From positions 1-32,021 of IMG/VR virus record IMGVR_UViG_3300049255_000590: DNA of 32,021 nucleotides, one strand, 5' to 3'. Below, one piece after another: positions 2,042 through 19,736 of this stretch; position 1 is the stretch's first letter, and each line of letters begins with the position of its first letter. The notes beneath the pieces are model-generated. The model made no database searches and had not been told where the DNA came from. It saw only the letters and a list, made by a program, of their open reading frames with translations. Source of the stretch: a virus. A program made the translations under genes and the position numbers.

Positions 2042-2920
2042 CTAAATTCCGAAAGGCTTCACGCTGCGGAGCACTTCCAAACAATCGAGTATCTTGAGCG
2101 TTTCGGAACCTAACGGAGTTCCGCCGCGCGTTTTTTGCCAATGCTCACGCGCTTCACTCATCGTGAAGCAGCGACAACCGGCTGTGACGCGCCACTCACC
2201 GTCTAAAAACGGGAGGTAGCAAAAAGAAAAACCATCGCTTCTTTTAATGCCGTAGACCAGCGCGTTGCCGCGGACCAGCGCCTCGCCGTCGACCCGCGCG
2301 TTGCCGTAGACCCGCGCGTTGTCGTAGACCCGCGCGTTGTTAGAGACCAGCGCCTCGCCGTAGACCAGCGCCTCGCCGTAGACCCGCGCGTTGTTAGAGA
2401 CCTGCGCCTTGCCGTCGACCCACGCGTTGCCGTAGACCCGCGCGTTGCCGTCGACCCACGCGTTGTTAGAGACCCGCGCGTTGCCGTAGACCCGCGCGTT
2501 GCCGCAGACCCGCGCCTCGCCGTAGACCAGCGCCTCGCCGTAGACCTGCGCCTCGCCGTAGACCCGCGCGTCGCCGTAGACCCGCGCGTTGCCGTCGACC
2601 CGCGCGTTGCCGCAGACCCGCGCCTCGCCGTAGACCAGCGCCTCGCCGTAGACCCGCGCGTCGCCGTAGACCCGCGCGTTGCCGTAGACCCGCGCGTTGT
2701 TAGAGACCAGCGCCTCGCCGTAGACCAGCGCCTCGCCGTAGACCCGCGCGTTGCCGTCGACCCGCGCGTTGCCGTCGACCCGCGCCTCGCCGTAGACCTG
2801 CGCGTTGCCGTAGACCCGCGCGTTGTTAGAGACCTGCGCGGTGTCAGCTACCCAACCACCGCCATTGGGGTGCTGGTGTGCCGGGACAGGCCCGGCTCCA
2901 AAATCGAATAGGTTGCTCAT
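2042..2920 (-). CDS. Hexapeptide-repeat left-handed beta-helix protein
   Basis: This 292-aa protein contains about 33 tandem hexapeptides (residues 24-221) of the form V-Y/D/S-G/N-N/E/D-A-R/L/Q. That is the [LIV]-G-x4 pattern of left-handed beta-helix proteins. Three hexapeptides make one triangular turn, so about 11 turns are predicted. A non-repetitive C-terminal domain of about 70 aa follows, with WRVTAGCRCFTMSEAREHW and LECLEVL-like segments. Repeat proteins of this kind occur in phage genomes with no known role. The acyltransferases that share the fold have active-site His residues and loops that I do not see here, so an enzyme is unlikely. It overlaps the YqaJ exonuclease gene by ATGA and is therefore coupled to the recombination module. 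A structural or DNA-mimic role is possible but unproven. Confidence 0.85.
   Translation of the reverse strand: MSNLFDFGAGPVPAHQHPNGGGWVADTAQVSNNARVYGNAQVYGEARVDGNARVDGNARVYGEALVYGEALVSNNARVYGNARVYGDARVYGEALVYGEARVCGNARVDGNARVYGDARVYGEAQVYGEALVYGEARVCGNARVYGNARVSNNAWVDGNARVYGNAWVDGKAQVSNNARVYGEALVYGEALVSNNARVYDNARVYGNARVDGEALVRGNALVYGIKRSDGFSFCYLPFLDGEWRVTAGCRCFTMSEAREHWQKTRGGTPLGSETLKILDCLEVLRSVKPFGI
2258..2851 (-). repeat. Tandem 18-bp coding repeat array
   Basis: About 33 copies of an 18-bp unit encode the hexapeptides. Typical units on the coding strand read GTCTACGGCAACGCGCGG-like, with changes that mostly alter codons 2 to 4. Longer blocks recur as well: the unit series with the VCGNAR hexapeptide appears twice, which points to block duplication by slippage or unequal recombination. 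Copy number is expected to vary between relatives. Confidence 0.95.
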
Positions 2921-7197: not shown

Positions 7198-7824
7198 ATG
7201 CCAGCACTTATGGCAACGGAAGATCATTGCAAAACCGCAGCCGATGTCATGGCCGCGGCTCGAAAAGTGGCCGAGCGGCGGCGACAAAGTTTTCAACGGA
7301 TACCGACTTTTAAACACGGGATTTCCCGGTCTGTTCAAGCCGGCGAAACCCCCGATATTACCCCCTATATTCCCACAGGGAAGAATATCGTGGCCGGCGC
7401 CCAAGCGACCGATGGGATAGAACTCACTCCCCGTGAGAAGGTCATCGCCGACTACGTGTTAAGCCACATTAACGGCGTGCGGCAGCTAGCGCCGGGGGTG
7501 TTTCCGCCCGGCATCGCGGATATTCAGCGCGCTGTCGCAAGGCGGTGGGCCGTTACCGTCACTGAGCTGACATCCGTCTGCCGCACAAAGCACCTGGTCT
7601 TCGCTAGGCAAATCGCCATGGTGCTGTGCCGGCTCCTGACATGCCGCAGCACGACGGAGATCGGCCGCGCTTTTGGAGACCGGGACCACACGACAACATT
7701 GTACGCATTGCGGAAATACGAATGGCTTGCTGCCATTCTCCGCGATGAGATGGTCGCTGGCGCCACGCTCGCCGACTGGGTCTGCCGCGCCTATCAGATA
7801 GCGATGGAGGCGCGCGATAAATGA
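7198..7824 (+). CDS. DnaA domain IV-like replication initiator protein
   Basis: In this 208-aa protein, residues about 108-176 match the DNA-binding domain IV of DnaA. The segment FARQIAMVLCRLLTCRSTTEIG is followed by the signature GDRDHTTTLYALRK (RDHTT at 162-166), which in DnaA contacts the DnaA box. The AAA+ ATPase domain of DnaA is absent. The N-terminal half is charged and looks partly disordered. The protein may thus bind DnaA-box-like sequences and recruit or compete with host DnaA. It overlaps the next replication gene by 4 nt (ATGA). A strong AGGAAAGGGG ribosome site precedes the ATG. The domain match is clear; whether it starts or inhibits replication is not. Confidence 0.88.
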   Translation: MPALMATEDHCKTAADVMAAARKVAERRRQSFQRIPTFKHGISRSVQAGETPDITPYIPTGKNIVAGAQATDGIELTPREKVIADYVLSHINGVRQLAPGVFPPGIADIQRAVARRWAVTVTELTSVCRTKHLVFARQIAMVLCRLLTCRSTTEIGRAFGDRDHTTTLYALRKYEWLAAILRDEMVAGATLADWVCRAYQIAMEARDK

Positions 7825-8549
7825 AACGTCCCTGGATCAAATTCTATACTTCTGACTGGCGCGCTGACCCGCGGCTCCGCATGTGTTCGCTGTCTGCACG
7901 CGGTTTGTGGATCGACCTAATCTCCTACATGGCCGAAGGAGAACCCTTCGGGCACCTCACCATCAACGGCATTTCGCCCGACCTGGCCGGTATAGCGGGG
8001 CTTGTTGGGCGTCCCATTGCTGAGGTCCGTAAGGCAATCGTCGAACTCTCGTATCACCAAGTGTGCAGCACGACTGAGGGTGGCGTGATCTTTTCGCGCC
8101 GCATGGTGCGCGATCACCAAAAGGCTCAGGAGGGGTTAGACGCTGCGGTGAAGCGGTGGGAAAAATCAAAAACACCTAATGGGTCACCTAATGGGTCACC
8201 TAATGGGTGTTATGGCAAAACACCTAATACTCAGAAGCTAGAAGCTAGAACTCAGAGGTCAGAGGATAGCTCTGAGTTAGCTTCACCACCTTCACCAAAC
8301 CCTCCAAATCTAGATTTTATTCCGGGTTTTTTGGATCGAAGGGGTGAAGCGGTGAAGAATTTTCCGCGTCACGGTGCTCGATCTGGCGATGGACGCTTCG
8401 TTTATTTTAAGCGCGGAACGGACGAATTTGCGGCCTACTCCGAGGATTTCAGGGAAGCGACGGGAGACACGCCAGGGGCCACGAGCGACGGCCGATGGTT
8501 CAAATTCGCGGGCAGTGCGGCGGGGAGTGCGGCCCGTGGCACGCGGTAA
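7821..8549 (+). CDS. Phage replication protein with internal candidate origin
   Basis: In this 242-aa protein, the N-terminal part (1-115) resembles N-terminal domains of phage replication organizers: RPWIKFYTSDWRADPRLRM, SARGLWIDLISYMAEGEP, then a winged-helix-like segment ending GGVIFSRRMVRDHQKA. The middle (about 115-175) is low-complexity (NGSPNGSPNG, SPPSPNPPN) and is encoded by repeat-rich, AT-rich DNA. The C-terminal part (YFKRGTDEFAAYSEDF onward) is a separate small domain. The gene sits directly after the DnaA-like gene, ATGA-coupled. It is in the position of lambda O, and like O it seems to carry the origin inside it. No helicase or primase motifs are visible, so it probably loads host DnaB. 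Confidence 0.75.
   Translation: MKRPWIKFYTSDWRADPRLRMCSLSARGLWIDLISYMAEGEPFGHLTINGISPDLAGIAGLVGRPIAEVRKAIVELSYHQVCSTTEGGVIFSRRMVRDHQKAQEGLDAAVKRWEKSKTPNGSPNGSPNGCYGKTPNTQKLEARTQRSEDSSELASPPSPNPPNLDFIPGFLDRRGEAVKNFPRHGARSGDGRFVYFKRGTDEFAAYSEDFREATGDTPGATSDGRWFKFAGSAAGSAARGTR
8173..8228. repeat. 12-bp direct repeats, candidate origin iterons
   Basis: CACCTAATGGGT occurs three times end to end (8173-8184, 8185-8196, 8197-8208). A partial fourth copy, CACCTAAT, is at 8221-8228. Each unit has ACC/GGT symmetry. They lie in the low-complexity centre of the replication gene, as the lambda O-binding iterons do. Confidence 0.85.
8242..8357. other. Candidate replication origin: hairpin and inverted repeats round an AT-rich core
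   Basis: A strong hairpin has arms at 8242-8257 and 8270-8283 (AAGCTA and ACTCAGAG pairing, with a 2-nt bulge). It is followed by paired CTTCACC boxes (8281-8287, 8290-8296) and their inverted partners GGTGAAG (8343-8349, 8351-8357). Between these lies a 46-bp AT-rich stretch that would open easily. With the iterons just upstream, this is the usual composition of a theta origin. Function is inferred. Confidence 0.5.
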
Positions 8550-17516: not shown

Positions 17517-18509
17517 ATGGCTGACATTCCCGAAAATGAGAACCTGATTGATGCAGTCCAAACCGGCGTCCGCGAGACGGAAGCCGAGATACTGAACGAA
17601 GCCTTCATCGACCCGCCTGAGGATGGCGACGCCGACGAAGCGGACACTCAGGATCAGACTGACGCGCAAGACGCATCGAGCGATCGGCCCCGTGATGAAA
17701 AGGGCAAATTCGTCGCCAAGGATGCCGCCAAGCAAGCCGACCAGCAGACCCCGGAACAGCAGAAGGCTGCCGAGGGCGAGCAGGCCGGTGAGAAGGGCGA
17801 CAAAGATGACGGCGAAACGGTCCCGCGATGGCGCCTGCGCGAAATCGCCGAGGAGCGGCGCCAGGCGCAAGCCGAGCGCGACCAGCTCCGCGCCGAGCTG
17901 ATCAGGCTGCAGACCCAGCAGCAGACGCGGCAGCCGCCGCAGTCTCCTGCACAAGGTCTGCAACAGCAACCGCAGCAAGAGAACCAGGAAATCGACCCGC
18001 TGCTCGATCCCGTAGGCTTCGCGAACCGGCTTCGATCCGAGTTCGCGCAGCAGCTCGCGACGCAGCAGCTAAATTTCTCGCTCTCCCGCGCCCACGATCG
18101 GCACGGCGAGGTATTCGAGAAAGCCTATGAAGCCCTCGTCACTGAGGGCCAGCGTGGGAACGGCGCGATTGTCAGAGATCTGACGAGCCGTCCGAACCCA
18201 GGCGAGGCGATCGTAACCTGGCACAAGCAGCAGATGCTGCTCCGCGAAACCAACGGAGACCTCGACGCCTACAAGTCACGGGTGCGCGAGGAGCTACTGC
18301 AGGATCCGGAGTTTCTCAAGCAGGCAATGGAAACCGCTCGCGGCCAAGCCACCGGCGGCCAGCGGCAGCCAACTCAAGGTCAACGACCAAATACCATCAC
18401 GCGACTGCCGCCGTCTCTCTCCCGCACGGCCGGGTCCTCGGCGAACGTGGACCCGATCGACACGGACGACAGCGACGACGCGATATTCGCGTTTGCAACG
18501 CAACGCTAA
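17517..18509 (+). CDS. Putative capsid scaffolding protein
   Basis: This 330-aa acidic, Gln-rich protein lies directly before the coat gene, the scaffold position. The first 100 residues are acidic and disordered (PPEDGDADEADTQDQTDAQD). A coiled coil follows (about 105-145: WRLREIAEERRQAQAERDQL). The later helical part includes DPVGFANRLRSEFAQQLA. The end is low-complexity. Such layout (disordered acidic head, coiled coil, basic end) is common for scaffolds of P22/N4-like phages, which leave the prohead during maturation. No sequence family can be named. Confidence 0.75.
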   Translation: MADIPENENLIDAVQTGVRETEAEILNEAFIDPPEDGDADEADTQDQTDAQDASSDRPRDEKGKFVAKDAAKQADQQTPEQQKAAEGEQAGEKGDKDDGETVPRWRLREIAEERRQAQAERDQLRAELIRLQTQQQTRQPPQSPAQGLQQQPQQENQEIDPLLDPVGFANRLRSEFAQQLATQQLNFSLSRAHDRHGEVFEKAYEALVTEGQRGNGAIVRDLTSRPNPGEAIVTWHKQQMLLRETNGDLDAYKSRVREELLQDPEFLKQAMETARGQATGGQRQPTQGQRPNTITRLPPSLSRTAGSSANVDPIDTDDSDDAIFAFATQR

Positions 18510-18536
18510 GACCGTCCCGCTATATCGACAATGACG

Positions 18537-18559
18537 AGCCGCCTCCGGGCGGCTTTTTT
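18537..18559 (+). terminator. Rho-independent terminator-like hairpin before the coat gene
   Basis: AGCCGCC and GGCGGCT form a 7-bp stem with a TCCG loop, followed by six T. It lies 28 nt after the scaffold stop and about 30 nt before the coat ATG. As coat must be highly expressed, it is probably a partial terminator with a new promoter or read-through beyond it. Confidence 0.85.
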
Positions 18560-18590
18560 GTTGCGCGGACGGTAAGAAAGGAGAGGAGCC

Positions 18591-19736
18591 ATGGCTCTTT
18601 CAACCGTCCAGGCTAATAATAAACTCATCCGCTTCCGCAAAGAGATCACGCGGGAGTTCATTCGCGAGAATATGTTCTCGCCCTTCATGGGCACCGGCCT
18701 GACCTCGATCATCCGCGTGATGAACGACCTCAAGGCCGGCGGCGAACAGGTCAACGTCCCGCTGGTTGCCCGCCTCCAGGCGACCGCCATCGCTAACGGT
18801 ACGCTCGCCGGTAACGAAGAGGCGATCGACGAGTACGGCTTCCGGATGTGGATTGACTGGGCGCGCAACGCGGTCAAGACCAACAAGCAGGAACTGCACC
18901 GCGCGTCCGCCGACATCTTCGACTATGCTCGCCCGCTTCTGTCCGATTGGGGTAAGGAGCTGCTCAAGAACGAGATCGTTGACGCACTCAACTGCGTCGT
19001 CTCCGAAAGCGCGCCTCCGAACCTCGGCACGACAAACGGTCAGCGCGTCAACGGCATCTCGATCGACAGCGCCACCAGCACCCAGTGCAACACTTGGGTG
19101 TCTGACAACTCCGATCGCGTGCTGTTCGGTCACTCGGTATCGAACTATTCCTCGACATTCGCGACCGCGCTCGGCAACCTCACCACCTCGAGCGACAAGC
19201 TTACTGCGGCCGCGCTCAAGTTGATGAAGCGTCTCGCGATGAAAGCCAACCCTCGCATCCGTCCCTACAAGACGAATGACGGCTACGATTATTACATGGC
19301 GTTCATGGGTCCGAACTGCTTCCGCGATCTTGCGAACGACGCCACGATCATCAACGCCAACCTCTACGCTCGCGAGCGAAGCCCGCGTGCGCTGCAGAAT
19401 AACCCGCTCTTTAACGACGGCGATATTCTGTATGACGGCATCATCTGCCGCCAAGTCCCCGAGATGGATGTTCGCAACCCGACGCTCTACGCGACGGCGG
19501 GCGGCAGCTCCACCAAGGTCGCCCCAGTGTTCCTGTGCGGTCAGTCCGCGCTGGCCATGTTCTGGGGCCAGATGCCCAAGCCCACCACCCTCGACAACAC
19601 CGACTATCAATTCCTGCGCGGTGTCGGCATCGAGATGGCCTACGGCATCGGCAAGACCTTCAAAAAGACGACGGGCGGCGCTCTAAAGGAATGGGGCGTG
19701 TTCACCGGCTTCTTTAGCGCCGCTGACGACGCCTAA
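18591..19736 (+). CDS. Major capsid (coat) protein
   Basis: This 381-aa protein resembles the N4-gp56-like coat family (HK97 fold). The N-terminal region has FTREF-type helices (LIRFRKEITREFIREN), then the typical MGTGLTSIIRVMNDLKAGGE and VNVPLVARL strands. It continues with EEAIDEYGFRMWIDWARNAV and later NDGYDYYMAFMGPNCFRDL. Length and the downstream accessory gene fit. A strong AAGGAGAGGAG ribosome site precedes the ATG, as expected for an abundant protein. It sits between scaffold and the head-completion genes. Confidence 0.88.
   Translation: MALSTVQANNKLIRFRKEITREFIRENMFSPFMGTGLTSIIRVMNDLKAGGEQVNVPLVARLQATAIANGTLAGNEEAIDEYGFRMWIDWARNAVKTNKQELHRASADIFDYARPLLSDWGKELLKNEIVDALNCVVSESAPPNLGTTNGQRVNGISIDSATSTQCNTWVSDNSDRVLFGHSVSNYSSTFATALGNLTTSSDKLTAAALKLMKRLAMKANPRIRPYKTNDGYDYYMAFMGPNCFRDLANDATIINANLYARERSPRALQNNPLFNDGDILYDGIICRQVPEMDVRNPTLYATAGGSSTKVAPVFLCGQSALAMFWGQMPKPTTLDNTDYQFLRGVGIEMAYGIGKTFKKTTGGALKEWGVFTGFFSAADDA

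Follow-up and report, generated by a model that had tools for sequence, protein, structure and literature searches.

A candidate replication origin of iterons, heptads and a hairpin inside a phage initiator gene

About 110 bp at positions 8169–8278 very probably form an initiator-dependent origin of replication that lies inside its own initiator gene, in the part that codes for the linker. On comparison of sequences, the three-part design to which it belongs (variable iterons, a fixed heptad array and, often, a hairpin) recurs at the same spot in replication genes from dozens of unrelated phages. The window, i.e. the whole stretch of DNA that was analysed, comprises 32,021 bases, positions 1–32,021 of virus record IMGVR_UViG_3300049255_000590.

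Gene neighbourhood, protein and modules of the element

From the left end of the window onward, the minus strand carries genes for an integrase, a RecE-like exonuclease, an Erf annealing protein and an S24 repressor. The plus strand carries, in order, a gene with DnaA domain IV, the gene at 7821–8549, a DUF6456-like gene, the terminase, and P22-type portal and capsid genes. At 2042–2920 (minus strand), in an early phage operon, there is a gene for a 292-aa protein made almost entirely of 18-bp (six-residue) repeats, in about 32 copies, which matches the YdcK beta-solenoid and bactofilin models. The features of the element and its surroundings are:

7198..7824, plus strand: upstream gene with DnaA domain IV (DnaA-box-binding HTH), a possible partner (Pfam Bac_DnaA_C, E=9e-23)
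7821..8549, plus strand: replisome-organizer/primosomal-type gene, 242 aa, bearing the element (PHROG and the PHROG labels of homologs)
7848..8168, plus strand: region coding for the predicted winged-helix DNA-binding domain, residues 10–116 (AlphaFold2, Foldseek)
8173..8208, plus strand: iterons, three exact 12-bp copies of CACCTAATGGGT, class CCTAWTNGG (direct count; synonymous shuffles)
8217..8230, plus strand: partial fourth iteron AAAACACCTAATAC, which runs into the heptads (partial copy AAAACACCTAAT at 8217–8228)
8232..8266, plus strand: heptad array, five in-register 7-bp YAGANNY units (synonymous shuffles; homologous arrays in the unbiased set)
8249..8278, plus strand: hairpin AACTCAGAG/CTCTGAGTT, 9 bp with a 12-nt loop (arms 8249–8257/8270–8278)
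8259..8275, plus strand: compact alternative hairpin TCAGAG-GATAG-CTCTGA (inverted-repeat inspection)
8281..8296, plus strand: two CTTCACC boxes, 8281–8287 and 8290–8296 (sequence scan; not conserved in relatives)
8297..8342, no strand: 46-bp AT-rich tract, 39% GC (composition)
8343..8357, minus strand: two inverted CTTCACC boxes, GGTGAAG on the plus strand at 8343 and 8351 (sequence scan; not conserved in relatives)

The phage protein encoded at 7198–7824, directly 5' of the initiator gene, has DnaA domain IV but lacks an AAA domain. A Bac_DnaA_C gene likewise adjoins the element-bearing gene in one relative (L130), as does a DnaA-annotated gene in phage phiLM21. The protein may be a mimic of host DnaA or an accessory origin binder. 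Matches to the DnaA box all carry two mismatches and all lie outside the element, and a DnaA-box claim for the element was dropped on that ground. The GC skew of the window was uninformative; Rfam gave no match at the window element, and its sole match over 13 relatives was an unrelated sRNA. In the nearest relative (L127), a homolog of the cell-cycle regulator GcrA is encoded directly upstream of the initiator gene (1896–2489), and could link replication of the phage with the cell cycle of its host.

The protein that spans the site is of the initiator DNA-binding type, with a winged helix, structural matches to initiators, and relatives that carry replication labels. In the AlphaFold2 model, secondary structure extends over H10–H116 and the 10-residue means of pLDDT are 85–98 from residue 11 to about 110, while confidence is low from about residue 120, the stretch encoded by the element, and the linker is predicted to be disordered. 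A low-complexity protein had been reported over the element by the first-pass annotation, and it does read TPNGSPNGSPNG...SPPSPNPPN. The top Foldseek match in the PDB is 4pta ('MDR initiator', an iteron-binding RepA), then 5kbj (Rep-DNA) and 4pql, and these three iteron-initiator structures are within the top seven. The scores are modest (E=4.5e-3, low full-query TM), and at that level the folded domain appears to resemble solved iteron-binding initiators. The protein's own best PHROG match is weak (PHROG 13246, phrog_13246, replisome organizer, E=0.035). It reached no O-like match in the PHROG scan, and no Pfam match to DUF1376 (PF07120) or to RepA_N, the likeness to the latter being by fold only. 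Pattern scans of viral and genome contigs with the full protein found no close relatives; an alignment restricted to the N-terminal domain retrieved 200 homologs.

The three exact 12-bp repeats and the partial copy noticed earlier are present at 8173–8208 and 8217–8228, and their 12-bp period stands out from 5000 synonymous-codon shuffles of the gene (p=0.0002). Repeated 7-mers 5' of the heptad array form 34 pairs in this gene, with 3.5 expected from synonymous shuffles. The heptad array begins at codon 137, 3' of the iterons, and consists of CAGAAGC, TAGAAGC, TAGAACT, CAGAGGT and CAGAGGA, with AGA in register. These heptads are not especially AT-rich, and their 7-bp period has the same significance (p=0.0002, 5000 synonymous-codon shuffles of the gene). 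The inverted repeat described earlier as a hairpin was found at 8249–8257/8270–8278. Its folding energy is not significant and its loop (GATAG or 12 nt) departs from the C(TRNN)G consensus of other hairpins given below.

The paired inverted CTTCACC boxes (8281, 8290, 8343 and 8351) and the AT-rich core between them, also noticed earlier, are real but are not common to the relatives. With a further GGTGAAG copy at 8147, five of the window's nine copies of CTTCACC/GGTGAAG fall within about 210 bp (Poisson 6e-9), and any 7-mer reached five copies in 3 of 500 synonymous shuffles. By GC content, the tract at 8297–8342 ranks among the lowest 0.3% of the window's 46-mers. CTTCACC occurs near the element in 5 of 100 genes, with multiple copies in the window alone, and the boxes are therefore treated as window-specific. 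It is possible that those around the AT tract are extra binding sites, e.g. for the DnaA-domain protein.

Iterons, heptad arrays and hairpins in relatives

Iterons of the CCTAWTNGG class could also be aligned in Pam1, in Sinorhizobium and in six phages from IMG/VR. Core columns of the nine-member alignment are invariant and the DNA around them is unalignable, and the junction CCTANTAC[TC]CAGAAG is kept across all nine. The protein of Pseudanabaena phage Pam1 is 42% identical to that of the window over 144 residues; its gene is directly downstream of the replicative helicase gene, and the DNA at the equivalent place reads CACCTAATAGGTCACCTAATAGGGAGCCTAATACCCAGAAGCCAGAAGCCAGAAC. Prophage copies on Sinorhizobium plasmids and one IMG/VR contig show the order iterons, then AGA heptads, and in Sinorhizobium phage phiLM21 (NC_029046) the element is in a 'primosomal protein' gene (18500–19408) between genes annotated as DnaB-like helicase and DnaA. 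The 5' repeats vary by locus (GTTCAACG, ATGTCC, GGATAAC, ATGC..., CCTAAT) while the heptad is constant. In Moraxella Mcat24 and Methylophilaceae P19250A, CCAATAA/AACCACT heptads are 3' of GTTCAAC iterons.

The iterons exceed what the codons require, both by shuffling and by codon use. Repeated 7-mers 5' of the array exceed synonymous shuffles in 33 of 65 genes, against 5 of 65 for a control region. Among 15 genes of the CCTAAT class, proline is written CCT in 47 of 63 codons of the block versus 46 of 239 elsewhere (p=4e-16), and asparagine is written AAT in 32 of 37 versus 40 of 96 (p=2e-6).

Heptad arrays were surveyed in two ways. A search of viral contigs seeded with CAGAARCYAGAARCYAGAA gave at least 119 stretches, most of them in ORFs of 200–350 codons at about codon 130–150. 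All three reading phases are represented among the array starts (65/24/17 of 106 ORFs). PHROG names of 77 selected element-bearing ORFs are primosomal protein (41), replisome organizer (26), replication initiation and O-like (phrog_345 matched by 11, phrog_678 by 7), and DUF1376 (PF07120) is matched by 21 of the 77; several element-bearing homologs directly adjoin a full DnaB helicase gene or a DnaA-domain gene. The unbiased survey took homologs found via the N-terminal domain alone, with repeats ignored, and comprised 65 non-redundant genes including that of the window. Period 7 rises above synonymous shuffles (p<=0.05) in 40 of these, period 6 in 14, period 4 in 10, and periods 5 and 8–13 in 2–5. 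A significant 6- or 7-bp array is present in 47 genes (p<=0.01 in 38), and in 45 of these it begins within codons 123–151. About 18 of the 65 homologs are without a significant array, some having hexamers or a CTTCTT version. A pyrimidine array, CTTCTTCTTCATCTTC, with a 3/6-bp period, replaces the AGA heptads in a subset of homologs (L145, L147, L155, L157, L199 and L200), where it is located at codons ~143–150, 3' of GGGGGG...CCCCCC repeats.

The heptads are concentrated and oriented. A three-unit motif has 67 matches in the 11.5 kb of codons 110–170 (39 genes). Elsewhere in the genes (41 kb) it has 3, on the plus strand of 252 kb of flanks 1, and on the minus strand none; its density is about 1500-fold higher in the codon 110–170 segment than in the flanks. 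The consensus over 165 units is Y-A-G-A-R-N-C. Adjacent units mismatch at 5–19% in AGA and at 42–53% in positions 5–6, a contrast somewhat exaggerated by anchoring the unit phase on AGA, and the low rate of the core holds in all three codon positions. Since a 7-bp period rotates the reading frame, AGA being kept in three codon positions means that DNA, not protein, is selected. The first-pass annotation had suggested as much from the window, and this is supported by repeats that exceed synonymous-codon expectation and by their equivalent position in homologs. Many bacterial genomes also carry perfect (CAGAAGC)n as an ordinary short tandem repeat, and it is widespread in those of Phycisphaerales, Acidobacteria, Nitrospinota and cyanobacteria (L207–L286); none of the 139 such sites recorded was in a gene classed here as a replication gene.

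For hairpins, 100 non-redundant genes were searched within 60 nt 3' of the array for at least six perfect pairs around a four-base loop. They are present in 32, where synonymous shuffles predict 3.5 and a control region has 1. Loop sequences include TAAC (10), TACC, TAGC and TAAA (4 each) and TGAC (2); a C-G pair closes the loop in 27 of the 32, and the stem sequences are unrelated. The loop starts C|TR in 23 of 32, compared with 10% of null hairpins. In 20 of these 23 the T is at codon position 3; a protein-level or common-descent constraint on the loop is possible. Overall folding energy of the 3' segment is not clearly unusual (p<=0.05 in 7 of 46 genes vs 3 in the control). Heptads are present with the hairpin GAAGAACC-TATC-GGTTCTTC in Paracoccus phage Pkon1, and Erythrobacter phage ZS04 has CAGAAC hexamers with CTCCTCC-TGTC-GGAGGAG. 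The comparison thus shows the element's conservation at the DNA level, its position, its orientation and its gene family.

Proposed mechanism and alternative explanations

We infer that the element is an origin, and its modules would have the following roles. The winged-helix protein from 7821–8549 would bind the CCTAAT iterons, a step based on precedents with the origin in the initiator gene (lambdoid O, pSK41 rep, repC). The oriented YAGANNY array would serve as the opening or loading site, with one strand held by the initiator or a partner, by analogy with a winged-helix Rep that binds one strand of opening-region repeats (PMC4081077). Conjecturally, the downstream hairpin would mark the entry of helicase or primase. 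CTA and CTG are known primase start trinucleotides (PMC5204125), and the reading of the loop by primase is put forward as an idea only.

Iteron class agrees with the type of linker in all 57 scored genes, genes with iterons or linker in neither class being omitted: CCTAAT iterons go with the KRW-type linker (10 genes), and GGATAA/GTTAACC iterons with the NGKxGGNP-type linker (47 genes). A test on independent pairs was concordant, with too few pairs for significance. The N-terminal domain nearest to that of the window, in L127, is 70–71% identical, yet its linker and iterons are of the other type, which suggests that a cassette of linker plus origin has been exchanged between phages and that part of the specificity resides in the residues that follow the winged helix.

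Agreement of linker and iterons would equally be expected if the same protein bound them class-specifically as an autoregulatory operator, or as an incompatibility or copy-control site, with replication starting elsewhere. We consider this unlikely, as it leaves unexplained both the heptad array and hairpin, which come next in a set order, and a placement about 350 bp inside the gene, and intragenic repeats of this sort are origins in the precedents named above. Neutral tandem duplications or minisatellites tolerated in the linker are a poorer explanation still. The linker is indeed predicted to be disordered and the same heptad is common as a bacterial short tandem repeat, but the units vary at the N positions while keeping AGA in every codon position, the ~1500-fold density over the flanks is strand-specific, and junctions are kept between phages whose proteins are ~42% identical. 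Motif density and conservation of the core already count against neutrality. Slightly less probable again is that the linker peptide (PNG/QKPEARSQ) is what is selected, with the DNA repeats as its consequence. Peptides such as QKPEARSQKPEA do recur in relatives, but shuffling synonymous codons with the peptide unchanged abolishes the periodicity, array starts fall in all three phases (65/24/17), and CCT and AAT codons are enriched in the block only. The pattern of the AGA core is hard to reconcile with either peptide selection or neutral slippage.

A wider reading can be offered tentatively, as a hypothesis that may well prove wrong: the YAGANNY array, often with a C(TRNN)G hairpin, might be a common phage origin module that serves many unrelated pairs of iteron and initiator. 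One conserved factor, from either the host or the phage, would read it to open and prime the DNA strand-specifically, and iteron-linker cassettes would be exchanged between phages and change the specificity of replication. Origins within initiator genes are already well known. In the openly available literature, a scope outside which most subscription papers fall, no relevant paper contained the heptad strings or the QKPEARSQKPE peptide and none was found that describes the heptad array or the composite element; the common heptad array plus hairpin looks undescribed. Origins are known for few phages beyond the lambdoid models, and the element provides a signature for locating candidates in phages of Alphaproteobacteria and others, one that splits a variable recognition part from a constant part. 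If the proposal is true, synonymous recoding of 35 bp would abolish replication with the protein unchanged, and the low-complexity peptides that recur in phage replication proteins (QKPEARSQ, PNGSPNG) would be by-products of selection on DNA.

Comparison with known origins

At oriV of RK2, oriented 13-mers beside the iterons are bound on one strand by the winged-helix TrfA, and all of the repeats are needed (PMC4081077). Oriented repeats beside iterons and a winged-helix Rep are shared with the window element; the RK2 repeats, however, are 13-mers, AT-rich and outside the gene, and strand binding in the window element is proposed by inference only. At the corresponding place, the ydaU gene (DUF1376) of the E. 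coli Rac prophage has GTGTTCAAAC-like repeats (GTTCAAA) and then a short-period A-rich stretch but, unlike the window, no YAGANNY array.

In repABC plasmids the origin is within repC, and synonymous changes in its A+T-rich part abolish it (PMC3155836). The location within the initiator gene is the same, although RepC is a different protein and what is conserved there is A+T richness, not heptads. The rep gene of pSK41 encodes a winged-helix N-terminal domain of ~120 residues and has Rep boxes mid-gene, in a central, origin-coded region that is dispensable (PMC5703833). The window resembles this RepA_N type in its winged-helix N-terminal domain, mid-gene repeats and top Foldseek matches, and differs in lacking a RepA_N Pfam match, in its repeats and in its phage context.

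In lambda and Stx phages the origin is mid gene O, with several iterons and then a 3' opening region (PMC7466680), single strands of which are also bound by lambdoid O (PMC7466680). A lambda-O-like origin in the replication gene had been proposed by the first-pass annotation, which missed the most conserved part, the 7-bp array; the proposal itself has gained comparative support and is kept here as a probable reading. Both systems would place the origin midway along the initiator gene, with iterons followed by a 3' element. The window protein has no detectable sequence match to O, and its iterons are unrelated; in place of the plain AT-rich tract of lambda there is an oriented 7-bp array, and a conserved hairpin module often accompanies it among the relatives.
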